This document shows positions 1 through 63,224 of a stretch of 64,000 bases of DNA, piece by piece. The notes beneath the pieces were generated by a model. That model did no database searches, was not told where the DNA came from, and was given only the letters and a program-made list of their open reading frames with translations. The number at the start of each line of letters is the position of its first letter. The stretch's first letter is position 1. The position numbers and the translations under genes are program-made. Source of the DNA: Propionibacteriaceae bacterium AM104-82 (lineage in GTDB: Bacteria > Actinomycetota > Actinomycetes > Propionibacteriales > Propionibacteriaceae); assembly GCA_027658995.1 (NCBI GenBank), contig JAQDQK010000009.1, forward strand, positions 62,001 through 126,000. Direction: 5' to 3'.

Positions 1-774
1 AGCGGCGCCTCCGTTGCCTGAGCCGAGGCGGGCGGCCATCAGCACACCGCTGAGCGCCGAGAGGATGCCTGTGATCATGAAGATCGTGATCCGTATGCGG
101 GTCACGTTGATGCCCGCCAGCCGCGCCGAGGCCGCGTTGCCACCGACGGCGAAGACCGAACGACCAAACGGGGTGCGCGTCGAGACGAACCCGAAGAACA
201 GGAACGCGAGGATCATGATCAGCGCCGGGGTCGGCAAGCCGAGCACTGAGCCGGAGAGGAACGAGATGATCGGGTCCGAGAGAGGGATTGGCACGGGCAG
301 CGCGTCGGTGATGAACAGGGCGAGGCCGCCCAGCATCAACCAGAGGCCAAGGGTTCCGATGAAGCTCGGCACGCCAGCCTTCGCCCGCAGGACACCGACC
401 AGCATGCCCCAGCCTGCGCCGCACAGCAGCGTCAACAGGATCGCGACAATGACGGGTAGGCCAGCCGAGGTGATGATCTTGGCGAAGATCACCGACGAAA
501 GGGCAACAGCCGGGCCGATCGACACGTCGATCTCTCCGGCGATGATAACGAGGGTGACGCCGGTTGCTGCCACTCCGATCATGGCCGCATCGCGGAGGAG
601 ACCGAGCTGGTTGGGTGCGCTGATGAACCCGGTCGCAGTGAATGACAGGACTATGTACAAGATGACGATGCCTGCCAGGAGACCCAAGATGTTGAGTCCT
701 GTGCCGCTGGCAGAGATGCGGCTCCACAGCGCCGCTGCGCCGCGCTCGGTGGTGGTGTCGGTGGGCTGCGACAT
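1..774 (-). CDS. Sugar ABC transporter permease (partial, C-terminus off the window)
   Basis: Membrane subunit of a carbohydrate importer of the ribose/xylose ABC class. The 258 visible residues begin with an ATG at 772-774 and run off the left edge; relatives are usually about 320-350 residues, so the C-terminal part is missing. The reverse-strand translation starts with a polar tail (MSQPTDTTTERG), then strings of hydrophobic helices. It contains the segment GEIDVSIGPA, which matches the conserved G-x-IDLS-x-G region of this permease family. The start lies one base after the stop of the upstream ATPase gene, so the order binding protein, ATPase, permease is one operon. The substrate cannot be told from sequence. 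Confidence 0.9.
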   Translation of the reverse strand, partial: MSQPTDTTTERGAAALWSRISASGTGLNILGLLAGIVILYIVLSFTATGFISAPNQLGLLRDAAMIGVAATGVTLVIIAGEIDVSIGPAVALSSVIFAKIITSAGLPVIVAILLTLLCGAGWGMLVGVLRAKAGVPSFIGTLGLWLMLGGLALFITDALPVPIPLSDPIISFLSGSVLGLPTPALIMILAFLFFGFVSTRTPFGRSVFAVGGNAASARLAGINVTRIRITIFMITGILSALSGVLMAARLGSGNGGAA

Positions 775-775
775 G

Positions 776-2281
776 TCAGTTCTCCTTGGTGGAGTCGGTC
801 CCCATGGCGGCGGCGAGGAGATCGGAGTTGGTGATGTTAGGGGCGCGGAACTCGTGTGTGAGTTGACCGCCGCGCATGACGACTACGCGATCGCATACGA
901 GGGGGAGTTCCTCGAGCTCGCTCGACACGAACAGGACCGCTGCCCCGTCGGCGGCCAAGCCGCGCACGATGTCGTAGATCTGCGCCTTCGACCCGACGTC
1001 GACGCCGCGGGTCGGTTCATCGAGAAGTAGCACGTCGCTGCCCGCGTGCAGCCAACGCCCGATGACCGCCTTCTGCTGGTTACCGCCGCTGAGGGTTCGG
1101 ATGGGTCGCTGCAATGAGGCCGCCTTGATGGCGAGTCGCGCCTTGAGGCCCGCTGTCGCTTGGCCGACCTCGGATCCCTGCAGCACTCCTGCCTTCGTGA
1201 CCTTTGAGTAGTCCGTCAGGATGATGTTGTCCGCGATGCTGAGGTCGGCGATGATGCCCTCCGCCTTGCGGTTCTCGGGTGTCAGGCCAAGCCCCAACGC
1301 CTTCGCCTTGCGGGGGCGGCGAGCCTTGGTAGGGACGCCATTGATGATGACCTCGCCTGCGGTGACCGCGTCGAAGCCCGCGATGGCGCGCAGCAGTTCG
1401 CTACGTCCGGAGCCGAGGAGCCCCGCGATGCCAAGCACCTCACCGGCCCGTACCCGCAGGTCGATGCCACGCACCTTTGGCGGCGAAACGAGGCCTGTGA
1501 CCTCGAGTTTGACGTCGCCGAGCGCGTTGGGCTCGAGTGCGCCGGCATCGTCGTGGGTGGCACCTAGCATCAGGTCGATAATGTGGGCGGTCGAGGCTCC
1601 CTTGATGGGTTCGGTCGAGACGTGTCGTCCGTCGCGCATCACGGAGACGCTGTCAGCAATCTGTCGGATCTCATCCATCCGATGGCTGACGTAGATCACT
1701 GCAACGCCTCTGGCGGAGACCTCCTTGACGACCCGCAACACCAGGTCGACTTCGTTCGCAGCGAGCGCGCTGGTCGGCTCATCGAGAATCAGGAGCCGTG
1801 GGTCCTCACGGACGGCTCGAACGATCTCGACGATCTGCTGCTCGGCCAACGTCAGGCTGTCGACCGGGCGACGCGGCGACATGGTGAGACCAAACGAGCG
1901 CAGTGTCTCGCCTGCTGCCGTGGTCATGGCGCGTCGATCGATCCTGGCCGGGTTCCCGGGCCAGCGGCCGAGGAACATGTTCTCGGCGATCGTCATCTCT
2001 GGGATGAGGCTGAGTTCCTGATATACCGTCGCGACGCCTGCCGCTGCGGCCGCTTTGATCCCGCCTATCAATGGGGCGCCGCCGATGTGGATCGTTCCCT
2101 CGTCGGGGCTCTCCGCGCCCGAGAGCATTCGAATCAGGGTTGACTTGCCCGCGCCGTTCGCGCCGAGCAGTGCCCTGACCTCCCCCTCAGCGACCGACAG
2201 GTCGACCTGCTTCAGCGCTTGGACCCCCGGGTACCGCTTGCTCACGCCGACCGCTTGCACCACCTGTTTTGACTCATTCAT
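776..2281 (-). CDS. Sugar ABC transporter ATPase with two nucleotide-binding domains
   Basis: Cytoplasmic energy-coupling subunit of the RbsA/MglA/XylG type. Two ABC cassettes sit in tandem in 501 residues. The first has Walker A GANGAGKST and Walker [11 protein letters not shown]. The second, degenerate at its P-loop (GLLGSGRSE), has signature LSGGNQQK and Walker B LLLDEPTRG. This asymmetry is normal for the family. I chose the ATG at 2279-2281 rather than an upstream start at 2320, because AGGAGAGG lies about five bases before it. It follows the binding-protein gene after a 64-base gap holding a hairpin and is one base from the permease. Confidence 0.93.
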   Translation of the reverse strand: MNESKQVVQAVGVSKRYPGVQALKQVDLSVAEGEVRALLGANGAGKSTLIRMLSGAESPDEGTIHIGGAPLIGGIKAAAAAGVATVYQELSLIPEMTIAENMFLGRWPGNPARIDRRAMTTAAGETLRSFGLTMSPRRPVDSLTLAEQQIVEIVRAVREDPRLLILDEPTSALAANEVDLVLRVVKEVSARGVAVIYVSHRMDEIRQIADSVSVMRDGRHVSTEPIKGASTAHIIDLMLGATHDDAGALEPNALGDVKLEVTGLVSPPKVRGIDLRVRAGEVLGIAGLLGSGRSELLRAIAGFDAVTAGEVIINGVPTKARRPRKAKALGLGLTPENRKAEGIIADLSIADNIILTDYSKVTKAGVLQGSEVGQATAGLKARLAIKAASLQRPIRTLSGGNQQKAVIGRWLHAGSDVLLLDEPTRGVDVGSKAQIYDIVRGLAADGAAVLFVSSELEELPLVCDRVVVMRGGQLTHEFRAPNITNSDLLAAAMGTDSTKEN

Positions 2282-2309
2282 TGACCTCTCCTCTCGATGA
2301 CCGACCGGT

Positions 2310-2331
2310 GGGGGCGACAAGAGCCGCCCCC
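2310..2331 (-). promoter_or_regulatory. Intercistronic hairpin between binding-protein and ATPase genes
   Basis: A perfect 7-bp inverted repeat (GGGGGCG / CGCCCCC) with an 8-base loop lies just after the binding-protein stop on the minus strand. On that strand no U-run follows, so it is better read as an RNA-stabilising or partially attenuating hairpin. Such hairpins keep binding-protein mRNA above ATPase mRNA in many ABC operons. The role is inferred. Confidence 0.5.
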
Positions 2332-2345
2332 TTTTGCGGGTCAGA

Positions 2346-3365
2346 TCACGGAAGTCCGTCGGGGTGGGTGTCGAGCCACTCCTGGGCCATGTCTGGCGTG
2401 TACAGCTTCACCGGTGCGGCGACGACCTTTTCCTCGGGCGTCTCGCCGTCCATGGCGGTCTTGGCCTGCGCGAACGCCATCTTGCCGACCTCGATGCCCG
2501 AGATGTCGACGACGGCCTGGAGCACCTTGCCTTCCTTTAGTGCCGCTGCGATGTCGGAGGTCATGTCGGAGCCGAATGCGAAGACCTCGCCGGTCTTGCT
2601 GCGGTTCTCGACGGACTTGAAGGTGCCGACTGTGGCGCCGCCGGACTGCCCGTACATTCCGACGATGCCGGGGTTAGCCGTGAGCATCTGCTCGCCGACT
2701 GAGATGGCCTTGTCGGCCTCGGTGCCCTCCTGGTTGGCGACGATCTTCGCGCCGGGGAGCTTCGCCGTCAGGGCATCGCTGAAGCCCTTCATGCGCTGCT
2801 GGCAGACCTCGTACTGCTCACAGTTCAGCACCCCGATCTGAGGCTCCTCGATGCCCTTCTCCTTGTAGAAGTCCCCAGCGAAGTCGCCCGCGAGCTTCCC
2901 GAACTCAACAGGGTCCCCCAAGATGTAGGCGGTCACGTACTTGTCCATGGCCTCTTGGGAGACGCACGTGTTGTAGCAGATGACGGGGATTCCGGCCTCG
3001 GATGCCTGCTTGACGGCGGCGATGGAGCCGTCTGAAGACACGGCGGAGATAATGATCGCCGAGACACCCGAGGAGACCAGCGACTGCATGAAGGAACTCT
3101 CCTTCGACACGTCACCCGCCGATGAACTCTCGATCAGTTTCACATTCATACCGGAGGACTTGGCTGCCTCCTGCACCCCCTTCTTGACGCCGCCGTAGTA
3201 GCCCTGCGAGTCAAGGTAGAGCGCGCCAATTCGGACTTCCTTGCCGTCTTCACCGGGCTTCTCTCCCCCGCTAGTGGTGGACGAGCATGCCGTGAGGGCA
3301 GTTGCCGACATCAAGATCGCGAGCATCGCTGCGCTAACCCGCTTGAAGGTTCTTCGTGGTCGCAT
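2346..3365 (-). CDS. Sugar ABC transporter substrate-binding lipoprotein
   Basis: Extracytoplasmic binding protein of the periplasmic-binding-protein 4 (ribose-binding-like) family, 339 residues. The N-terminus is a lipoprotein signal: basic RPRRTFKR, a hydrophobic stretch, then lipobox LTAC with the modified cysteine at about residue 27. A Ser/Gly-rich linker and two Rossmann-like lobes follow. I chose the ATG at 3363-3365 because GGAGG lies eight bases upstream; an ATG at 3414-3416 would add an unlikely 17 residues before the signal. It is the first gene of the importer operon that continues into the ATPase and permease. Ligand unknown. Confidence 0.92.
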   Translation of the reverse strand: MRPRRTFKRVSAAMLAILMSATALTACSSTTSGGEKPGEDGKEVRIGALYLDSQGYYGGVKKGVQEAAKSSGMNVKLIESSSAGDVSKESSFMQSLVSSGVSAIIISAVSSDGSIAAVKQASEAGIPVICYNTCVSQEAMDKYVTAYILGDPVEFGKLAGDFAGDFYKEKGIEEPQIGVLNCEQYEVCQQRMKGFSDALTAKLPGAKIVANQEGTEADKAISVGEQMLTANPGIVGMYGQSGGATVGTFKSVENRSKTGEVFAFGSDMTSDIAAALKEGKVLQAVVDISGIEVGKMAFAQAKTAMDGETPEEKVVAAPVKLYTPDMAQEWLDTHPDGLP

Positions 3366-3526
3366 GATTGGCCTCCGTTGGCTCATGGATGGGTGCCGGT
3401 GTCGCCGGCCCGACAATCAACATTGATCATGCAACGACGATATTCTGGGGTCGTCACCAGAAAACAGGTGCAAGCCTATGAAAAACCAGGACAAAACCTT
3501 GATTGGCCCAATGGGTGACCAGGCGC
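3366..3526 (-). promoter_or_regulatory. Promoter region of the first sugar importer operon
   Basis: This gap between the polyferredoxin stop and the binding-protein start is AT-richer than its surroundings and must contain the importer promoter. An inverted repeat GCCGG-N5-CCGGC lies close to the start codon and a TGATCA palindrome lies near 3426. Either could be a LacI-family operator, but no regulator gene is adjacent and I could not assign convincing -35 and -10 boxes. Confidence 0.35.
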
Positions 3527-4564
3527 TCAGCCAAGTTGGCCGAAGAGGTGCCTGAGGGCGTCGGCGGCGAGCGAGGCCCGCGTGGCGCACGACGTGCAGC
3601 GGTCGGTCTCGCCGGCACCCAGCGGGCGGGAGCATGTCGCGCAGGCGCGGGAGGCGACCTCGATCAGCGTCGACGGCGAGGCGAGCGCCACGTCGGGCGT
3701 CAGTTCGATGGCCGACTCGGGGCACAGCCTCACGCAGTCGCCGCAGCCGATGCAGCGCTGGGCCTCGAGCAGGAGCACCACACCTTCGTCGTCGGATGAC
3801 GCTGTCAATGCATCGGCGGGGCAGGTCCTGACGCACGCCTCGCAGCCTGTGCAGGACTCGTCGATCACGGGAAGCGGCAGCAGCGGATGCCCGACACGCT
3901 CCAGCAGCAGCGAACGGGGCGTCGCCTCCGTCGACGTGGAGGCCCTCACCTGGCTCGGCTCCTGGACCGTCGCGGCGCGGCGGAAGAGGGAGCGCCTGCT
4001 GAGTTGTCTCGTCGGACGACGGGTCGCCTCGACCGTCGCGCCCGCCTCGCCGTGCACCACGTTGACCTCCGCGAGCGCGATCGCCGAGGCGTCCGCCGCG
4101 ACGCGCGCCGCGCCGCCACCCTCGCCCAGGGCGCACCCCGAGCAGTCGGCGACGACCAGGTCGACCGGCCCGTCGGCTGCGGCGGCCGCGACGGTCTCGG
4201 GATGCAGCGTCGCGGCGCAGCCCACGTCGAGGCCGGGTCGTCCGGTGTCGTCGCCCAGCGGTGCCCCGCGCCGCCGCGCCACCTCGCAGCGCAACCGCAC
4301 CCCCGTCGTGGCGGCCGAGACGATCAACTCAGGCGAGGCGGCGACCCCGCTGATCGCCCTCGTCGGACACGCTGCCTCACACAGCCCGCACGACACGCAC
4401 AGCAGCGGGTCCGCGACAGGAGGCGCGTCCGGGGTGACGGCGAGTGCCGTCCTCGGGCAGGCCGCCACGCAGGCGTCGCAGCCCGAGGCGTGTGTCCTGG
4501 TGCAGGCGGACGCGTCGATGCGCGGGCTGGGGAGCAGCCCGGTCAGCGCGTCGGCCCAGAGCAC
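3527..4564 (-). CDS. Polyferredoxin with four 4Fe-4S motifs and a central Cys domain
   Basis: Predicted cytoplasmic electron-transfer protein of 345 residues. An N-terminal pair of cluster motifs (CDACVAACP near residues 29-37 and CVSCGLCEAACP near 56-67) is followed by a middle region. That region holds a CE pair, a GC and CSGC, recalling hydrogenase delta-subunit/MvhD-like domains. A second ferredoxin pair (CTGCEACVRTCP and CIGCGDCVRLCP) comes next, and the C-terminus has CATC and CTSC resembling a zinc ribbon. The GTG start at 4562-4564 lies one base after the stop of the molybdoenzyme gene, so it is the last gene of that operon. It may pass electrons to or from the complex; the exact role is unknown. 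Confidence 0.8.
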   Translation of the reverse strand: MLWADALTGLLPSPRIDASACTRTHASGCDACVAACPRTALAVTPDAPPVADPLLCVSCGLCEAACPTRAISGVAASPELIVSAATTGVRLRCEVARRRGAPLGDDTGRPGLDVGCAATLHPETVAAAAADGPVDLVVADCSGCALGEGGGAARVAADASAIALAEVNVVHGEAGATVEATRRPTRQLSRRSLFRRAATVQEPSQVRASTSTEATPRSLLLERVGHPLLPLPVIDESCTGCEACVRTCPADALTASSDDEGVVLLLEAQRCIGCGDCVRLCPESAIELTPDVALASPSTLIEVASRACATCSRPLGAGETDRCTSCATRASLAADALRHLFGQLG

Positions 4565-4565
4565 G

Positions 4566-7500
4566 TCAGATCCGCTTCACCTGCACCCACGTGTCGAGTT
4601 GGACGGCGCCGCCGCCGATCGGGTCGGAGTAGCCGCCCCCACCCGCGAGCGTGTCGTCGTCGAGCAGGTCGTTGACGGCGATGCCCAGCCCGCGGTCGCC
4701 CGCGATGCCGAGTTCCTCGTGACCGGGGCTCATCGAGCGCCGGTCGGCCTTGTTGCCGTAGGCGGGTGCGACGGGCGTCGGCTTCCCGTCGATCGTGATC
4801 GACCGTGCCCCGTAGTGCGTGTGGCCCATGGCCGCGTCGGCGCCGACGACGCCCGGCCGGATGGCCTGGGTCAGTTGTGCAACGCCCTCGACCTGGCCCG
4901 CCGCGGACCGGATCATGATCCGGTCGCCGTTGCGGATGCCGCGCGGGTCGGCGTCGTTGGGGTTGATGCTCAGGAAGTTCTGTGTGCGCACCTCGCGCAG
5001 CCACGGCGCCGAGATGGTGCGGTGGGTGCCCTGCGAGCGGGACTTCCAGTTGGTGAACTTCAGCGGCAGGTCGTCGCGCTTGAACGGGGTGCCGTCGGTG
5101 CGGAGAGCCTCCCGGATCCGGGCGAGGCCGTCGAACGGTTTCCCGGTGATGGGGTCCTTTGACGCGGCGACCTTCGGGTCGTAGAACTGGCAGAGCCCCT
5201 CGTAGCGGTACTTCAGCCAGTCGCCCTCATAGCCGTTGGCGTGGTCCTCGCCGTGGCCCTCGAAGCGTCCGCCGCGGTTGAGCACGGTAACGACCTTCGG
5301 CCACTCCTCGGCGGTCACGGCCGCCTTCCAGACGGACTCGTCGAAGTGCTTGCCGAGCGCCTTGGTGCGGGTCGCAGTGAACAGCGCCTGCTCCTCGGCC
5401 GACGCGTCCGCGACGGGCTGCTTGCCCGCGAACGCGACGTTGGCCGCCATCTTCAGCCAGTAGTCCTCGACGGTGTCGAACGCCGTCCCCGGCCCGAAGC
5501 CGTCGGCGCCGACGCCGGGCAGTTCCATGGCCTTTGCCAGTTGCAGGTAGAACCACTCAACGGGTCGCGGGCCCTCGAATGCGACGGTCGTCGGCTGGCC
5601 GAGTTGCGTCACGGCGTACTGCTGCGACGGGTAGACAGACTCCTGCGTGAAGCGTTCCAGGTAGCTGGGGTCGGGCAGCACATAGTCGGCGTGTGCGCTG
5701 GTGTCGCCGACGGTGATGTCGAAGCTGACGATCAGCTTGATGGCGTCGGTGTCGTGCATCTGCTCGGCGATCCGGTGCCCGTTGGGGGAGGAGTTCAGCG
5801 GCGAGTGCCGGTGCAGGAACAGAGCGTTGAGCGAGTACGGGTAGCCGGCCGCGGCGCTGGGGATCACCTCGTGGCACAGGTTGCCGGGGAACTTGAACCA
5901 GCGTCGCTTCGCCGGGTAGCCGTCCTCCTTGAAGAACGACGACTCCTCGTAGGTCGACTTCTCGCGCGTCACCGGGACGCCCCACGCCTTGTTCGGCTCG
6001 GGCACCTCGTTGATGTCGTAGCGGCCCTTGACCGGCGAGAACCCCTTCTGGGCGCCGATGATGCCGCCCTTCCAGTCGTGGTTGCCGATCAGGAAGTTGA
6101 GGTAGCCGATCGCCCGGATCGCGTCGAAGCCGTTGTGGTGCATCGCCGCGCCGCGGTAGGACGTGACGGCGGCCCGCTTGCCGTGCGAGGTGAAGTCGCG
6201 CGCGATCGAGGCGATCACGGACGCCTCGGTGCCTGCGGCCTCCGCGTAGTCCTCAAGGGTGCGCTCCATGGCGCGCTGCTTGAGCAGGTGGAAGACCGTC
6301 GCGACGGGGATCTCTCCCGCGGGCGTCGTGACGGTTCCCGCCCAGTCGAGTTCGGCGCCTGGCGTCGCGTTGGCGTCGGCGCCGACCAGTTGGCCTGCGA
6401 CCCGAGCCACGGACTCGGCGTCCATCGGCTTGCCCGTCTCCGGATCGATCTGCTGCTCGGCAAGGCCAAGGTCGACCATGGTCAGCTTGCCCCGCTTGGG
6501 GTCCTCGACCTTGACCAGGTGCGACGCGTCGCTCCAGTTCGGCTCCCCGAGCGCCTTCGCCGCCGCGGCGCCGGTCGCGCGCAGGTACGCGTCGTCGTAG
6601 CGCTCGTTCTCGACGATCCAGCGGATCATGCCCCAGGCGAGGTCGGCGTCGTTGCCCGGCTTGACCGGCACCCACACGTCGGCCTTCTCCGCCGTCTTCG
6701 ACATGCGCGGGTCGATCACGACCATCTTCATGCCGAGTTCGCGGGCGCGGCCGATGCGCGGCGCCATCCACGTCGGGCCCTTGTTCGCCGTGACGGGCTC
6801 GGCGCCCCAGACGATCAGGTACCTGCAGTAGTCGATGTCGGCGTACATCCGCTGGAACCCGGTCGTGGGGTGCGAGCGGGCGTTGGCGACGACACCCGAC
6901 ATGCCGCAGGTGCCGCCATGGTTGAACTGGTTGATGGAGCCGAAGGACTGGTTGGTGAACCGGCCACCGATCAGGTTCATCCGGTCGCCGCCGATGACGG
7001 CCATCAGGTTCGACTTCGGCCCGAGTTCGGGGCGCTTCGCGTCGATCAGTGCCTCGCCCCAGGTCTTCTCGAAGTCGGCCTGCGTCATGGTGCCCGCTGC
7101 GACGGCGTCGACGTCGGCCATCACCTTCTTCTTGGGCGCGAACCGCCACCACTGCCGGATCCCAGGGGTGCCGAGCTTCGAGGACCCGTCGAGGATGTCG
7201 GCAAGCGCCTCATCCCAGGTGATCGACTCCCACTGGTCGGAGCCGCGGTCGCCCACCCGGCGCAGCGGCGTCGTCAGGCGCAGCTTGTCGTGCGCGACCT
7301 GCGGGCCCGCTTGCCCCTTGAGGCATGCGATGCCGCCGGAGCGGGAGCGTGCGGTGTGGGCCATGTCGCCGATGCCGCTGACGGCGTCCTGCGGGCTGGT
7401 GTCGTAGGGGATCGGGCCGATCGGCTGCGTCGTCAGGGCGCTGTAGGGGTTGCCCGCGATCTTGCGGACCAGCGCGGTGGCCTGCGAGTCGCCGGGAGGC

Positions 7501-7736
7501 GCGAGGCGGACCTTGATGGAGCAGAACGTGTTGCAGTTCATGCACATCGAGTAGATGACGTCCTCGGCGGTGTAGGCGTCCGAGTCGTCCCCGGTGCCGT
7601 GCGCCGTCGACTCGTGGATCGGGTCGCCGAAGCCGTCGTTGACCATGGTCGCCGCGACGACGCCGACGCCGACCGCTCCTGCGCCGACGCCGAGGACGGT
7701 GCGCCTCTTGATGCCTTCTTGCTGCTCGTCGGTCAT
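4566..7736 (-). CDS. TtrA-like molybdopterin oxidoreductase catalytic subunit
   Basis: Exported bis-MGD reductase of the DMSO reductase superfamily, 1056 residues. A twin-arginine signal (KRRTVLGVG at residues 10-18) shows Tat export. An iron-sulfur motif CMNCNTFC (Cys65, 68, 72) with a fourth Cys in ACLKG (about 138) follows, and a candidate molybdenum-ligand Cys lies in GGTCGMSG (about 277). The run ELGPKSN, then NQSFGS and NHGGTCG, resembles tetrathionate reductase TtrA more than nitrate or formate enzymes. Polysulfide, thiosulfate or arsenate activity is not excluded. The ATG at 7734-7736 overlaps the NrfD stop (ATGA), giving tight coupling. Family assignment is firm; the tetrathionate substrate is an inference. 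Confidence 0.85.
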   Translation of the reverse strand: MTDEQQEGIKRRTVLGVGAGAVGVGVVAATMVNDGFGDPIHESTAHGTGDDSDAYTAEDVIYSMCMNCNTFCSIKVRLAPPGDSQATALVRKIAGNPYSALTTQPIGPIPYDTSPQDAVSGIGDMAHTARSRSGGIACLKGQAGPQVAHDKLRLTTPLRRVGDRGSDQWESITWDEALADILDGSSKLGTPGIRQWWRFAPKKKVMADVDAVAAGTMTQADFEKTWGEALIDAKRPELGPKSNLMAVIGGDRMNLIGGRFTNQSFGSINQFNHGGTCGMSGVVANARSHPTTGFQRMYADIDYCRYLIVWGAEPVTANKGPTWMAPRIGRARELGMKMVVIDPRMSKTAEKADVWVPVKPGNDADLAWGMIRWIVENERYDDAYLRATGAAAAKALGEPNWSDASHLVKVEDPKRGKLTMVDLGLAEQQIDPETGKPMDAESVARVAGQLVGADANATPGAELDWAGTVTTPAGEIPVATVFHLLKQRAMERTLEDYAEAAGTEASVIASIARDFTSHGKRAAVTSYRGAAMHHNGFDAIRAIGYLNFLIGNHDWKGGIIGAQKGFSPVKGRYDINEVPEPNKAWGVPVTREKSTYEESSFFKEDGYPAKRRWFKFPGNLCHEVIPSAAAGYPYSLNALFLHRHSPLNSSPNGHRIAEQMHDTDAIKLIVSFDITVGDTSAHADYVLPDPSYLERFTQESVYPSQQYAVTQLGQPTTVAFEGPRPVEWFYLQLAKAMELPGVGADGFGPGTAFDTVEDYWLKMAANVAFAGKQPVADASAEEQALFTATRTKALGKHFDESVWKAAVTAEEWPKVVTVLNRGGRFEGHGEDHANGYEGDWLKYRYEGLCQFYDPKVAASKDPITGKPFDGLARIREALRTDGTPFKRDDLPLKFTNWKSRSQGTHRTISAPWLREVRTQNFLSINPNDADPRGIRNGDRIMIRSAAGQVEGVAQLTQAIRPGVVGADAAMGHTHYGARSITIDGKPTPVAPAYGNKADRRSMSPGHEELGIAGDRGLGIAVNDLLDDDTLAGGGGYSDPIGGGAVQLDTWVQVKRI

Positions 7737-8983
7737 GACTCTTCCTGCGGGACGATGGAGACCCGGACCGGGTCGTGGATGGGCTGCCAGGACGCGACGA
7801 GGCAGTAGACGAGGACGCCGCCAGCGATCAGGAACGCGGCGACCCCCCACTCGACGAGCGACGGGAAGTACCAGCCGGTGGCATAACCGTCGAGCACCGG
7901 CGTGATCTGGGGCGGGACGACGATGTTGAACCGCACGCCCATGATCCCGACCACGACGCAGGCCGCCGCGAGCGCCGTCCAACCGACCGAGGAGCGCAGC
8001 TTGGGGATCATCAGGATCACGATGGGCACCACGAGGCCGAGGCCGATCTGCAGGCCCCAGAACGTCCAGGCGTAGGGGCCGAACATCATCACCTCGAGGA
8101 TGCTGGACTCGTGGTGGTCGGCGGCGAGCAGCGGGATGCCGTACTCGTACATCGTCAGGCCCGCGTCGACGAACAGGCCGGCGAGCAGGATCCGGGCCAT
8201 GAACCCGATCAGCTTCTCGTTGGGTCGCCTGCCCGAGGCGCGCTCGGCGAGGTAGTGGATCACGATCAGCACGGCGCAGCCTGCCAGCACCGCAGAGGCG
8301 AGCAGGATGACGGGGAACAGGCCGCCCGACCAGGTGCTGCGCGCCGACACGACAGCGAACAGGGCACCCTCGGCGCCGAGGACGCCGATGATGGCCAGCG
8401 GCAGGCCGATCGCGGAGAGGATCTTCAGGGTGCGGCGGTTGCGGTTGTCGTTGCCGAGCCCGCGCTGCAGCCGGATCGCGAAGACCAGCTGGGCCACCAC
8501 GATCGCCAGGTAGACGACGTAGCTGCGCACAGCCCACGCGAGGGGGCTCGTCCAGTGGAAGAACAACATCACGTTGAGCGCGCGGTCGAGGCGACCCAGG
8601 TCGACGCCGATGAAGGCGAGGCCGACGCCGAGGCTGACGGCCGCCGTCAGGAGCGCGCTGCGGCCGATGCCCTCCGCCTGCCTGATCCGGAACCCGAACA
8701 CCAGCGAGGACAGGATCGCGGGGCCGGCGGACAGGCCCACGAAGTAGATGTAGAACGCCACCCAGGCGCCCCACGGCACCTGGGACGTGAGCTCCGTGAC
8801 GGACAGGCCGCCGACGAGTCGCATCACCATCGCGACGGCGCCCGCGCCGATCAGCGTCAGCAGCAGCGGGTACCACCACATGCGGACGCGTCTGGTCAGG
8901 AAGGGCAGCTTCTCGGGCGGGGACCACCAGTGCCTGTCGGCGCTGGCCTCGCGGCCGGTCGGGGCGGCTTCGGTCGTCGTCAT
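7733..8983 (-). CDS. NrfD/PsrC-family membrane quinol subunit
   Basis: Integral membrane subunit that exchanges electrons between menaquinone and the extracytoplasmic iron-sulfur subunit. The 416-residue product has a polar N-terminus (MTTTEAAPTGRE), then about nine or ten hydrophobic helices with loops typical of NrfD (PLLLTLIGAGAVAMV, SAGPAILSSL, FHWTSPLAWAVR). The ATG at 8981-8983 is five bases after the stop of the 4Fe-4S subunit. An upstream continuation of the frame reads through that gene and is spurious. It lacks heme-binding histidine pairs expected of cytochrome b-type subunits, consistent with the NrfD class. Confidence 0.9.
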   Translation of the reverse strand: MTTTEAAPTGREASADRHWWSPPEKLPFLTRRVRMWWYPLLLTLIGAGAVAMVMRLVGGLSVTELTSQVPWGAWVAFYIYFVGLSAGPAILSSLVFGFRIRQAEGIGRSALLTAAVSLGVGLAFIGVDLGRLDRALNVMLFFHWTSPLAWAVRSYVVYLAIVVAQLVFAIRLQRGLGNDNRNRRTLKILSAIGLPLAIIGVLGAEGALFAVVSARSTWSGGLFPVILLASAVLAGCAVLIVIHYLAERASGRRPNEKLIGFMARILLAGLFVDAGLTMYEYGIPLLAADHHESSILEVMMFGPYAWTFWGLQIGLGLVVPIVILMIPKLRSSVGWTALAAACVVVGIMGVRFNIVVPPQITPVLDGYATGWYFPSLVEWGVAAFLIAGGVLVYCLVASWQPIHDPVRVSIVPQEES

Positions 8984-8988
8984 GGCAC

Positions 8989-9609
8989 TCACTTGAGGTA
9001 GTAGACGCTTGGTTCGGTGCCGAGCTCTTCCTTGAGCCGGAACGCGCGGGAACTGGAGGCGAGCTTCGACACGACAGAGGTGGGGTCGTTGAGGTCGCCG
9101 AACAGCCGGGCGTCGCCGATGCAGGTCTCGCAGCAGGCCGGCTCCTCGCCACGCATGGTGCGGTGCGTGCAGAACGTGCACTTGCGGACGATGCCCTGCG
9201 GAGGTGGCGTCGACAGGCCGTAGTCGGGCACTGTCATCTGGCCTGCGCCGTCGAACTCCTGGTCGTAGCTCTCGCCGAAGTCGAAGCTGCGCGCGCCGTA
9301 GGGGCAGGCGGCGATGCAGTATCTGCAGCCGATGCACCGCTCGGAGTCGATCACGACGACGCCGTCGGAGTTCTTGTAGGTGGCGTTGACGGGGCAGACG
9401 GGCACGCACGGAGGGTTGTCGCACTGCATGCACGGCCGGGGGAGGTTCACGCGGCGCACGTTGGGGAAGACGCCCGTCTCCTCCTCGATCACCACGTTGA
9501 AGTTGACTCCTGGGGGCGTCTGGTTCTCGGCCTTGCAGGCGACGGTGCACGAGTCACACCCGACACATTTCTGCAGATCGATGACCATTCCCCACTTGGG
9601 TTCCGGCAC
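8989..9609 (-). CDS. 4Fe-4S electron-transfer subunit (TtrB/NrfC/PsrB-like)
   Basis: Beta subunit carrying four cubane clusters between the NrfD subunit and the molybdoenzyme, 206 residues. Visible motifs in order: CVGCDSCTVAC, CMQCDNPPCVPVCP, CIGCRYCIAACPYG, and CTFCTHR followed by CCETC. This is the full set for the family. The GTG start at 9607-9609 has GAGGTG upstream at good spacing; an internal ATG seven codons later lacks one. No Tat signal is seen, so the protein probably leaves the cell with the Tat-tagged catalytic subunit. It is the first gene of the four-gene minus-strand operon down to 3527. Confidence 0.92.
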   Translation of the reverse strand: MPEPKWGMVIDLQKCVGCDSCTVACKAENQTPPGVNFNVVIEEETGVFPNVRRVNLPRPCMQCDNPPCVPVCPVNATYKNSDGVVVIDSERCIGCRYCIAACPYGARSFDFGESYDQEFDGAGQMTVPDYGLSTPPPQGIVRKCTFCTHRTMRGEEPACCETCIGDARLFGDLNDPTSVVSKLASSSRAFRLKEELGTEPSVYYLK

Positions 9610-9879
9610 GTACTCACCTCATTCACCGCGGCGCGTCCACGCCGCGGAGCGTCGTTGCATGTCCTACTGACGGTAGTAGAAGTCTGCTGACAATCCAACT
9701 TTGCGACGTGGCGTCGCAGGACCGGCCGTGGGGTCAGTTGGCTTGCAAGCCGGATTTCTCGCCGAGCCGGCCGGCGTGCTCCTGTCTCCCTCGCTGGCGC
9801 GTGGACCGGAGGAGTACGGCGGGACTCGAGCGGTGGGTCGTCGTCACGCACCTGTCGGACGGGCTGTGGTTCGCGTCGC
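9610..9879 (-). promoter_or_regulatory. Control region upstream of the molybdoenzyme operon
   Basis: No gene is supported here. The operon promoter must lie in this stretch. An inverted repeat CTACT-N6-AGTAG at 9664-9679, about 55 bases before the GTG start, is a candidate operator. I see no clear FNR-type TTGAT-N4-ATCAA site. Confidence 0.3.
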
Positions 9880-10110
9880 TCAGCAACGGCCGTCCGCCGC
9901 CTCCAGGACGTGGCGATTCTTCTGCTCGGAGTAAGGCTGGCTTGGCTGGTCGCCCACCACGCCGACGAGGCCGCCGACGGACGTGGTGGCGGCGTCCGAG
10001 GCGGCCTTCGCCAGGTTCTCGAGCGGATTGGTCCCGCTTACCGCCTTGTCGACTGCTCCGTGGGCATCTTCCGCGGCGTCCTCGATGACCTCCTTTGGGC
10101 TCCGGCGGGG
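9880..10110 (-). pseudogene. Coding-like frame after the TorD stop, lacking a start codon
   Basis: Directly after the TGA that ends the TorD-like gene, the same frame stays open for 76 codons to a TGA at 9880-9882. It looks coding. By my count about 85 percent of codons end in G or C, and the peptide has a plausible amphipathic segment (KEVIEDAAEDAHGAVDKAV) and a Gly/Val-rich stretch. A near-perfect Shine-Dalgarno sequence, AAAGGAGGT, lies 15-25 bases after the stop, but no ATG, GTG or TTG follows at usable spacing. It may be a decayed small gene that lost its start, or a C-terminal extension cut off by a nonsense change. Function unknown. Confidence 0.4.
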
Positions 10111-10683
10111 TCAGCCCTCGGCGAGAAGGTCGATCAGGTTGAAGCGCGGCCGGAACCGCGCCTCGAAGTCGCGCCCGGTCTCGATGCTGAGCGCCAGCAG
10201 CACGACCGGCGCGGTCGCGGCGAGGGCGGGGCAGTCGCGTTGGGCGTCGACGCCGAAGCACCACTCGTGCAGCGGGGCGGTGACGGCGCGGAGTTGGTCG
10301 TGCTGGGCGAGCCGCATCAGCCTGCCCCGCTCGAGGTCGCCCTGGCGCCAGCCGTCCAACTCGGAGGCGAGCGCGCCGAGCAGGGGTTCAAGATCGGGCG
10401 CGACCAGACCCGCCCTGGCCGCGGTGATGCTCTGCCCGGTCGGCGGAACGGCATTCGCGGCCGCCCGGAGCGTGGCCAGCGGTTCGCCGAAGCGGGCGGC
10501 GTCGTCGCGCAGCCAGTCGACCGAGCCTTCGACCCCGTCGCACCAAGCGCCGTCGCTCAGCCTGGTCGCCACGTCGTCCGCGGGGCCGGTGAGCAGTTCG
10601 TCGATCAGTCGCCAGAGCGCGGCACGCTGCTCGACGACCTCGGCGAGCGAGTCGGTGACGGCGCGGGGGAGGGGCTCGGTCAT
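10111..10683 (-). CDS. TorD-like molybdoenzyme chaperone (putative)
   Basis: A 190-residue, probably all-helical protein next to the reductase operon. Its length, position and sequence character fit TorD/DmsD family chaperones, which hold the Tat substrate and help insert molybdopterin. Recognisable family features are weak: a run of helical segments, a Trp/His-containing LHEWCFG segment and a C-terminal RPRFNLIDLL. I assign the family mainly on context. The ATG at 10681-10683 was chosen over a longer frame reaching 10845, because the extension runs into the palindromic repeat and is Arg-rich. It may be co-transcribed with the coding-like remnant behind it. Confidence 0.65.
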   Translation of the reverse strand: MTEPLPRAVTDSLAEVVEQRAALWRLIDELLTGPADDVATRLSDGAWCDGVEGSVDWLRDDAARFGEPLATLRAAANAVPPTGQSITAARAGLVAPDLEPLLGALASELDGWRQGDLERGRLMRLAQHDQLRAVTAPLHEWCFGVDAQRDCPALAATAPVVLLALSIETGRDFEARFRPRFNLIDLLAEG

Positions 10684-10779
10684 GTGCCTGAGTCTGGCAC
10701 GGCGTCGCCCCAAAGGCCCGTTGAGCAGGCTTCTCGCCGACGCCTCTCGGCGGCGAGTGGCGCGGCGCGGGTCTGGTGT

Positions 10780-10859
10780 TTGAGCATGTTTGGTAACTCG
10801 TCTGCGATTTGATCGTTCAAACAAGTCCCGGAGCGCAACGAGCAACCAAACATGCTCAA
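10780..10859. repeat. 80-bp palindromic intergenic element, copy A
   Basis: An 80-bp unit bounded by a perfect 15-bp inverted repeat (TTGAGCATGTTTGGT / ACCAAACATGCTCAA). Inside, a two-base mismatch is followed by a second arm pair, CTCGT / ACGAG. It lies between the ArsR stop and the TorD-like start. Copies B (33642-33721) and C (63011-63090) have exactly the same length; by hand alignment copy A matches B at 64 of 80 positions and C at 52 of 80. No target-site duplication is obvious. Confidence 0.85.
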
Positions 10860-10923: not shown

Positions 10924-11493
10924 CTAAATCTCCTCGCTGGCGCTGAGGATCGTCAGGCTCCAGCTCAGGTCGTCGTCGCTCGGGTCGTCGCGGTAGCGGG
11001 CGATCACCTCGTGGAGTTCCTCGATCAGGTCGTGGTGACGCTCCCGCGTCAGTCGGAGTCGGGCCTCCGCAAGCGTGCCCCGCTCGACGGGGTCCTCGCC
11101 TGTCACGAAGGACGACGCCCACTTCGCGATGCGCGCCAACTGGTCCTGAGTGCCGGCGACGGAGGCGGCGAGCACCGCGTTGCCGAGCGCGACGTCGGCG
11201 ACCGGGTCGTCGGGGGAGCCGAGGGACAGTTGCCCAGAGGTCGGCTTCCAGACGCGGTCGCGCCGATCGCGCGCCTTCTCGGGGGCCTCCTCGATCAGCC
11301 CGGCGTCGGCGAGTACCCGAAGATGGAAGCTCAGCGTGTTCGCGGGGACCTCGAGGCTGTCGGCCAGGTCGGCGGCCCGCGCGAAGCGCAACCGGGAGAC
11401 CTCACGCCACACCTGATGGCGCAGCGGGTTGGCGAGCGCCTTCAGTACCTCGGTCGACATGGTCGGCGCTGGCAAGGACTTCTTCGGGGCCAT
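10924..11493 (-). CDS. ArsR-family winged-helix regulator with C-terminal extension
   Basis: DNA-binding repressor of 189 residues. A winged-helix domain spans about residues 12-80 (LKALANPLRHQVWREV, then LADSLEVPANTLSFHLRVLADAGLI, the recognition helix region). The C-terminal hundred residues form an extension with no metal-binding Cys motif, so this is probably not a metal sensor. It is divergent from an MFS exporter, with a strong palindromic operator between them at 11525-11557. Repression of the exporter and of itself is the simplest reading. The ATG at 11491-11493 gives MAPKKSL; a second ATG twelve codons in is also possible. Confidence 0.85.
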   Translation of the reverse strand: MAPKKSLPAPTMSTEVLKALANPLRHQVWREVSRLRFARAADLADSLEVPANTLSFHLRVLADAGLIEEAPEKARDRRDRVWKPTSGQLSLGSPDDPVADVALGNAVLAASVAGTQDQLARIAKWASSFVTGEDPVERGTLAEARLRLTRERHHDLIEELHEVIARYRDDPSDDDLSWSLTILSASEEI

Positions 11494-33641: not shown

Positions 33642-33721
33642 TTGAGCATGTTTGGTGACTCGTTTCCGATTGGCACGTTCACATAGGCCTTGGGGAGCAT
33701 CGAGCAGCCAAACATGCTCAA
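33642..33721. repeat. 80-bp palindromic intergenic element, copy B
   Basis: Outer inverted repeat TTGAGCATGTTTGG / CCAAACATGCTCAA, 14 bp perfect, with inner arms CTCG / CGAG. The unit is exactly 80 bp and matches copy A at 64 of 80 positions. It lies between convergent genes. Its right arm contributes the TGA stop codon of the hydrolase gene at 33718-33720, so insertion or capture of the element has set that gene's end. Confidence 0.85.
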
Positions 33722-34434
33722 GGTCGGGTCGCGCCCAACCGGTCCACGTGGGCGTGGATCACGGCCCAGGACGCCGGGTCGCGGACCGAACGGAAGTGGC
33801 CGCCGACCGGAAGCGTCTCGTTGACGGCGCCGTCGAGGTGCGATCCGGCCGGGACGACCTGGTCGAAGCTCGGCTGCAGCGACACGATCCGGGCGTTGAC
33901 GGAGCCGTCGACGGCGAGCCCGGCCAGTTCGACGCTCGCCGGGTGGAACAGGCCGAGCGGGGAGCGGCGCACCGCGGCGGTCGCCTGCGCCCGCTCCCAC
34001 AGCACCGACCCGGAGAACGGGGTAGCGACGGCGACCATGCCGATCAGCATCCCCTCGGACCGAGGGTCGCGCAGCATCGCCTTGCCGATCAGCCCGCCCT
34101 TGGAGTGCGCCACCACGACGGCGTCGCGCAGGCCGAGCCGTCCGATCTCGTCGAAGACCCGGTCGACGGAGGTCGCAAGGCCCGACACGTTCCAGCCGAG
34201 CGAGGCCACCGTCGTGACGGGGTGCCCGGCGGCGGACAGCCACGTCGTGAAGGGGCTCAGGTAGCGGGGGTTCTCCAGGATGCCCGGCAGCACCACGACG
34301 GGGATCCGGGCGCAGGCGCCGCCCGGCGTGGGGTGGTCGCTCCGGCGGCCTGGGAGGATCGCCCGGGCCAGGTCGCCCAGCCCGATCGCCCAGTCCCGGG
34401 CGAACGACGCGAGGCGGCCGATGCGCTCACGCAC
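33718..34434 (-). CDS. Alpha/beta hydrolase (lipase-like)
   Basis: 238-residue serine hydrolase. Segments seen: VVVLPGILENPR (oxyanion-hole loop) near residue 45, nucleophile elbow AHSKGG near 125, acid SFDQVVP near 195 and His in VGGHFRS near 215. This order agrees with a lipase/esterase catalytic triad. Its start (34434) overlaps the stop of the next hydrolase gene upstream by eight bases, so the two hydrolases form an operon. Its stop codon comes from palindromic element B, raising the chance that the true ancestral C-terminus was different. Substrate unknown. Confidence 0.8.
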   Translation of the reverse strand: MRERIGRLASFARDWAIGLGDLARAILPGRRSDHPTPGGACARIPVVVLPGILENPRYLSPFTTWLSAAGHPVTTVASLGWNVSGLATSVDRVFDEIGRLGLRDAVVVAHSKGGLIGKAMLRDPRSEGMLIGMVAVATPFSGSVLWERAQATAAVRRSPLGLFHPASVELAGLAVDGSVNARIVSLQPSFDQVVPAGSHLDGAVNETLPVGGHFRSVRDPASWAVIHAHVDRLGATRP

Positions 34435-62691: not shown

Positions 62692-63224
62692 CTAACCTCC
62701 TGGGCACGACAAACGCCGGACTATGCAAGACTTCCGCATCCCCGGGCCCCGAGGGCGCAATCTCACACCCAATGTCGGTTCGCGAAGTTTGTGGAGAATC
62801 TACAAGCCACCGGGCCATCGAGCGCATCGAGCGAGGCGTGACGGCCTTGTCACGGAGCCGACGGCGCCATCGTCAGGAGTGGACCCGACAGATTCGCCGT
62901 TGCGAGCTGGCTGGCACTGCACCGCGATCGGCCGCGGGCAAGCGGGCAGATCTGGGCGTCGGACGGCATGAGCCGGGTTCGCGCAGCGGATGTGGGTGCT
63001 CGGCTGAGCATTGAGCAGCATCCGTAACTCGTCCGCGGTTCGAACGATCAAGTCGTGCCGCGTGAGGAACGAACACCGACTACTGCTCAACGCCCAGCCA
63101 ACCCGCGGTTCGGTCGAGGGCGAAAGGGGTAGTCAGTCGCGGATGGTCGCGCGGCGCGAGCGGGTGGGCGCCGCGGGTGGCGAGTCCCTCACATATGTCG
63201 CGGGAGTGGGGCAGCATTGGCCGT
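62692..63224. promoter_or_regulatory. Divergent control region between acyl-CoA carboxylase and kup
   Basis: 533 bases with no supported gene. It must hold promoters for both divergent genes and contains palindromic element C at 63011-63090. I see no riboswitch-like conserved core, and a minus-strand open frame that crosses element C is not coding-like. Confidence 0.4.
63011..63090. repeat. 80-bp palindromic intergenic element, copy C
   Basis: The most diverged copy, 52 of 80 positions matching copy A. The outer arms are TTGAGCAG / CTGCTCAA, 8 bp. The eighth pair has changed from T-A in copies A and B to G-C here, a compensatory change. The core segment around GTAACTCGTCCGCGGTT is the best-kept part. 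Lies between the divergent carboxylase and kup genes. Confidence 0.75.

Follow-up and report, generated by a model that had tools for sequence, protein, structure and literature searches.

The three 80-bp palindromic copies found in the window, by which the whole analysed stretch of 64,000 nucleotides is meant, belong, as far as genome comparisons tell, to a large dispersed family of repeats of the Propionibacteriales. The explanation which we consider rather probable is that of a REPIN-like DNA repeat, an inverted dimer of a short unit that was spread by a candidate enzyme other than a Y1/RAYT transposase, is long-lived and serves as a target of recombination and of insertion sequences (IS). 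Of the three natures offered in the preliminary description of the window (folded RNA, protein-binding site, non-autonomous mobile unit), a dispersed and probably non-autonomous DNA unit fits best, although no matching transposase was found.

On recomputation, the positions of the three copies and their length of 80 bp each (Table 1) were borne out, and the same figures as described before were obtained for the identity of copies A and B (64 of 80 positions) and A and C (52 of 80; B and C: 49) as well as for the perfect outer inverted repeats of A (15 bp) and B (14 bp; C: 8 bp). A and B have their arm sequence in common, and copy C represents a second arm subfamily. The ends are kept in copy C as claimed, but the supposed central core GTAACTCGT is not at the centre of the element and forms the left arm's inner end. 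The location between genes applies to copy A (genes 10111-10683(-) and 10924-11493(-)) and to copy C, which lies between divergent genes. Copy B, located between convergent genes, departs from it by 4 bp, since the predicted gene 33718-34434(-) runs with its 3' end into the last four bases of the copy (33718-33721) and has its TGA stop inside the TTGAGC end.

Table 1. Coordinates of the repeat copies and of the features associated with them.
Feature	Position	Strand	Details
Copy A, 80 bp	window 10780-10859	.	arms 10780-10802 and 10837-10859, spacer 10803-10836
Copy B, 80 bp	window 33642-33721	.	arms 33642-33664 and 33699-33721, spacer 33665-33698
Copy C, 80 bp	window 63011-63090	.	arms 63011-63033 and 63068-63090, spacer 63034-63067
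Left outer flank of copy A	window 10760-10779	.	G011 synteny ends at 10760; carries the outward T-poor, C-rich flank motif of the family
IS30-split element, G011	L119 6190-7566
IS30-split element, G011	L120 3919-5294
Hma island, G022 contig C1	2875744-2888345		L230 15745-20000 and L216 1-8344

No fourth copy is present in the window, where every other place showed at most 40 of 80 identical positions to any copy on either strand, and a covariance model likewise returned the same three places only, matched on both strands. Folded as single-stranded DNA, the copies reached z-scores of -6.8 (A), -5.5 (B) and -2.6 (C) compared to shuffles, the weaker fold of copy C being equalled by 1 of 200 shuffles. 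With up to 3 mismatches, the 22-mer arm of A and B was found 3 times in the window (GC content of 69.2%) compared to 0.01 expected occurrences. Based on the z-scores of the folds and on the arm count, the three copies are beyond chance. No Rfam family matched the window at gathering score, and no match to the element was obtained in plasmid and phage records.

The element comprises two inverted copies of a 23-bp arm flanking a 34-bp spacer. Across species the format is common (a TTGAGCA end, a TCG inner motif and usually 79-81 bp) and the arm sequences, which resemble each other within a subfamily, vary. A set of 36 copies from several genomes could be aligned without gaps over 80 columns, 18 of which were invariant, comprising TTGAGCA, TGCTCAA, TC at positions 19-20 and GA at 61-62. 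Positions 8-15 vary by subfamily and are mostly complementary between the arms, positions 16-18 often retain a mismatch, and position 22 carries either A or T, the choice in one arm being largely independent of that in the other. In G018 and G022, the two arms of one element can even be different sequences that are unpaired in the middle. The spacers frequently contain GAACGTTCAA-like or CGACACGCCG pieces. Outside the 80 bp, an outward T-poor, C-rich motif of 15-20 bp was determined from 93 of the 107 rows of the anatomy set (some of which are chance hits of the first scan, and 7 of which are 78, 82 or 83 bp long), with no clear pairing beyond composition.

The family was detected most frequently in G011, a genome consisting of a single contig of 3,934,699 bp, which aligns with window positions 10760-64000 in blocks of 87-94% identity (about 90% where syntenic). 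It comprises both arm types of the window and 108 pattern places, at least one of which (415878) is a different repeat, and tandem copies occur at 106-183 bp. Together, the window and 27 stretches of G011 contained 61 candidates, of which 56 are exactly 80 bp long and one (82 bp, L126 3879-3960) is a different repeat. All 61 lie between genes as predicted by a codon-usage gene caller written for this analysis, with a short overlap of a few bases with a gene end in some cases. In other genomes, 3 of 32 matches overlapped predicted open reading frames (ORFs; L209 1310-1389, L209 16724-16803 and L205 6895-6973). Four elements of G011 (L099, L103, L105 and L118) end in TGCTCAT instead of TGCTCAA, which gives ATGAGC on the opposite strand. 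The different repeat, having TTGAGCATGCTCAA ends, is common to G011 (L126 3879-3960) and G012 (L033) and is perhaps an insertion-sequence end.

A first pattern scan of public genome contigs yielded 12 stretches, five of them from two Tessaracoccus species. The other seven, from Rhizobium (twice), an uncultured bacterium, Bacteroidetes, Lachnospiraceae, Acidobacteriaceae and Acidiferrobacteraceae, were rejected by eye as non-elements that look like chance, and so were both viral stretches. With a looser pattern, in which only the TTGAGCA ends were fixed and 76-84 bp were allowed, 53 places were found in Tessaracoccus bendigoensis and 9 in T. lapidicaptus. The window itself most likely derives from Tessaracoccus or one of its close relatives. 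T. bendigoensis also carries a palindrome with TTGAGCAGGAT ends that is longer (about 90 bp; L021 2002-2092 and L019 1761) and possibly represents a further subfamily. Among 198 genomes of Propionibacteriaceae, 35 showed at least one pattern place and eleven at least four (108, 53, 32, 21, 20, 15, 15, 9, 6, 5 and 4), compared to 0-2 places per genome for a reversed control pattern. Such repeats were not reported for Propionibacteriaceae in the titles and the opening parts of abstracts screened in the open-access literature.

The searches of related genomes by pattern and, as proposed in the preliminary description, with a covariance model gave many intergenic copies in sister genomes with arms changing together; further copies, covariation and conservation in sister species, the lack of which was to speak against the element, were all observed. 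Of 391 genomes sampled within the order, 26 had matches with an E-value of 1e-3 or better; a class-wide draw of 394 genomes gave 6 with a match, namely T. bendigoensis and five genomes with 1-2 matches each (E 9e-9 to 1e-3); in both tallies, both strands were counted and at most 11 candidates per genome were scored. Nine of the 26 genomes, searched deeper, gave 47, 44, 33, 14, 14, 12, 12, 8 and 2 model matches, again counting both strands. The model also turned up new arm types, for example GTGAGCAATTGG (G020, G030) and ATGAGCAC (G018, G022). An intergenic 84-bp version in G216 (L174, L214 and L215), whose single arms are palindromic hairpins (AATGATCACG TTTG CGTGATCATT), is likely kin to the family. 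An element in G092, which sits downstream of an ORF that we take to be that of ribosomal protein L17, was set aside as a presumed terminator.

The history of the copies was followed at six orthologous sites, two between the window and G011 and four between G018 and G022. The arms were identical at 268 of 276 positions (97%) without a gap, the spacers at 179 of 199 (90%), and the flanks at 204 of 232 within 20 bp and at 388 of 439 (88%) at 21-60 bp; the conservation of the arms compared to this outer flank gave a p of 2e-5. The orthologues in G011 showed 78 of 80 identical positions for copy C and 70 of 80 for copy A, and copy B is absent at its site. Since GCTCAA is left over there and GCTC is shared, this absence suggests a deletion of about 93 bp in G011 and not an insertion in the window. 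A clean insertion, meaning an empty site with exact boundaries, was seen at none of the sites compared. In the stretches of G018 and G022 that were compared, which had been picked around elements and expected synteny and not at random, all 10 elements of G018 have a G022 element at the same place. Of the 18 elements found in the stretches of G022, six had no placement in the G018 stretches and two (2485411 and 2485772) are absent from G018, which has other DNA there. Judged from these alignments, the stability of the sites between the two genomes gives no sign of present movement, and the element copies appear long-lived in place. Between more distant species, the arms differ completely. A repeat population undergoing homogenisation within a genome would be expected to show both.

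The constant length with drift in the loop had been taken before to suggest selection on a structure. The copies fold stably and the arms change together. Paired cells amounted to 85.0%, while shuffled alignments reached 71.3% and slid ones at most 37%; the score for covariation was 0.359 compared to 0.140. Two of the five measures were not above shuffles, namely pairs changed on both sides (14 compared to 13.3) and further pair types (34 compared to 35.2). As copies of a single unit, the arms would vary in concert in any case, and covariation is therefore no proof of selection on the fold and was rejected as proof of an RNA; the differing arms of some G018 and G022 elements, unpaired in the middle, also speak against such a proof. 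A structured RNA at gene ends, acting as a bidirectional terminator or mRNA stabiliser with its hairpin under selection, is the alternative that survives best, although we regard it as unlikely. It would account for the stable folds, for the conserved arms at orthologous sites and for a moderate enrichment in convergent gaps (13 of 44 element sites compared to 19 of 136 element-free gaps, p 0.024). However, 22 of the 44 sites are tandem and 9 divergent, divergent gaps being avoided if anything (p 0.064), the A/B arms have no preferred orientation relative to transcription, and the ratio of G-U over A-C on the presumed transcript was 34 to 20 (p 0.076). Moreover, a terminator gives no explanation for species-specific arms and conserved mismatches at positions 16-18. 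Some copies may act as terminators or on mRNA, but this leaves arm turnover and the fixed length unexplained.

With regard to a mobiliser, the Y1_Tnp domain of the RAYT family (PF01797) was found in 19 of the 198 Propionibacteriaceae genomes and in none of 17 element-rich genomes. These comprise the eleven with at least four pattern places (G153 by pattern count alone) and six in which the model matched 12-47 times, both strands counted (G018, G020, G022, G030, G033 and G117). G147, which has one PF01797 gene, was left out for its low number of matches (8 on both strands) and its inclusion would change the result to 1 of 18, while G216 was outside the test; G137 carries two PF01797 genes and 2 weak model matches. 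The association between the absence of PF01797 and element richness was not significant (p 0.38). As far as these genomes tell, the family evidently needs no detectable RAYT, and membership in the classic REPIN/RAYT system was rejected based on the 0 of 17 result.

A matching transposase and flanking duplications had been named before as support for a mobile unit. No transposase with matching ends was found, and no direct repeats around the 80-bp elements were seen by eye in the listed flanks, for which no exact empty site was available for comparison. In G011, unpartnered arms (listed genome-wide for the A/B subfamily and in the stretches examined for the C subfamily) and close element pairs led to ordinary genes only, as did the element-bearing stretches of G015, G018, G020, G022, G030 and G216, judged by eye from the first 60-70 residues and without family scans. 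Among the genes inspected beside elements, some by family scans and the rest by eye, no recombinase was seen except an inserted IS30. A miniature inverted-repeat element (MITE) derived from an insertion sequence with a DDE transposase, whose autonomous copies were lost or not seen, would agree with the inverted ends, the constant length, the missing coding capacity and the dispersed copies. This origin is also unlikely and slightly less credible than the RNA. No gene bounded by solo arms was seen in G011 save the inserted IS30, direct repeats at the ends were not seen by eye, and whole arms, not just the tips, change between species while the sites persist.

The IS30 copies of G011 were rejected as mobiliser, as the alignment of the two shows that the IS was inserted into the repeat. 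Both comprise 1295 identical bp (family assignment by NF033563 with 259.8 bits compared to a cut-off of 80), and each is inserted in the spacer of a different element at element position 33-35. The duplications were read as 2-bp (GC and AG), and once IS30 and the duplication are removed, the elements are 80 and 79 bp long. The target specificity rests on these two cases, since both were found through the elements they split and other IS30 copies of G011 lay outside the search.

Larger rearrangements coincide with the elements as well. In G022, an island of about 12.6 kb is located between two direct element copies, where G018 has one copy and no island. Its content includes an HmaB-like methylase (1100 bits), an HmaC-like ATPase (886 bits) and helicase domains, and the bounding copies agree over the 79 bp, with 2 differences, and beyond them over about 7 bp on the left and 17 of 18 bp on the right. 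In the window, synteny with G011 stops 20 bp left of copy A, and positions 8901-10700 gave no more than short matches in G011 (best 176 bp at 78%). On this side lies an operon of molybdopterin oxidoreductase, NrfD and Fe-S protein; over positions 1-10760, genes for a tetrathionate-reductase-like molybdoenzyme, NrfD, Fe-S proteins and a sugar ABC transporter were noted. Altogether, the elements coincide with two IS30 insertions, one island boundary and one synteny break. These cases are few in number and do not allow homologous recombination to be told from the site-specific kind. That the element is an att-like site through which islands enter and leave, as the G022 island and the DNA beside copy A that was not found in G011 might indicate, is the least probable alternative: a scan of eight island frames gave no recombinase family, homologous recombination might already be possible with about 100 bp of identity, and most elements read have no island beside them.

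According to the explanation by a REPIN-like repeat, an enzyme would recognise the arms, either as hairpin or as paired DNA, and the family would spread within the genome. This enzyme would change together with the arms and would not be a recognisable Y1/RAYT transposase. The copies would be homogenised by the spreading enzyme or by gene conversion, and homogenisation may even proceed without a dedicated enzyme. Being repeats, the elements would also act as sites for recombination and IS landing, and a benefit for the host would not be required. More speculatively, the family could form a separate inverted-dimer lineage of the Propionibacteriales, copied by a non-Y1/RAYT enzyme that reads the fast-changing arms, with its sites as exchange points for defence islands such as Hma.

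Among known systems, the ERIC/IRU elements of enterobacteria are palindromic, intergenic and of fixed length, and no transposase is known for them. Their length is about 127 bp and, by contrast, the arms of the window family differ between species and subfamilies. Repetitive extragenic palindromes (REPs) are known as IS targets, the IS breaking the repeat at nearly one point and leaving a short duplication, and the families named in the accessible part of the source are IS3, IS110, IS4, IS256 and IS5 (PMC1525189). The case of G011 is alike in break point and short duplication and differs in being IS30, with two copies only.

As described in the available portion of the text, GTAG and CGTC REPs form species-specific inverted dimers, are mostly located between convergent or tandem genes and supply stop codons to their neighbours; CGTC REPs lack a dedicated transposase, and the phyla listed do not include Actinobacteria, a word absent from that text (PMC3733652). 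The window family resembles them in its species-specific inverted dimers, in its location mostly between convergent or tandem genes and in supplying a stop codon, and CGTC REPs in that no dedicated transposase was found. It differs in the tags, which were counted in 100 elements (200 arms) out of the 107 rows of the anatomy set. GTAG or CTAC occurred anywhere in 20 of 100 elements and the commonest outer foot was GGCG (38 of 200 arms), while CGTT (100) was the commonest inner tetranucleotide instead of the CGTC, TGTC or CCTC tags, followed by CGAT (38), CGAC (11) and CGTC (10; CCTC 1). Taken singly, the left arms of A and B gave folds that were not more stable than those of shuffles, and the perfect stem of 8-9 bp with a loop of 4-5 bp per unit is absent from single A and B arms; the arms of G216 are an exception, as judged by eye.

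REPINs are well-studied short bacterial repeats, for which a dependence on RAYT transposases is assumed. A REPIN-like family with no RAYT detected suggests either that such a system can also be driven by another enzyme or that the repeats last without one. The presence of two subfamilies in one genome and of sister species with orthologous sites makes this question testable, and the elements mark IS and island sites in a little-studied group. The accessible part of the source describes REPINs as pairs of a conserved arm in inverted orientation, separated by a spacer that is constant in length but conserved to a lesser degree; they are intergenic, genome-specific and hairpin-capable, and several groups can share one genome (PMC3116915). 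Compared to these, the window family differs in its occurrence in Propionibacteriales, in the lack of a Y1_Tnp/RAYT gene in the 17 element-rich genomes and in having no RAYT-flanking copy. Since the RAYT gene, a defining feature, was tested and not found, the element is not classed as a REPIN but functions as REPIN-like, and the family is a REPIN-like one of the Propionibacteriales, without a detected RAYT and with IS30 and island associations. Common to both are the inverted arms with a less conserved spacer that is constant in length, the capacity for hairpin formation and the genome-specific arms in many intergenic copies, with two arm subfamilies in one genome.
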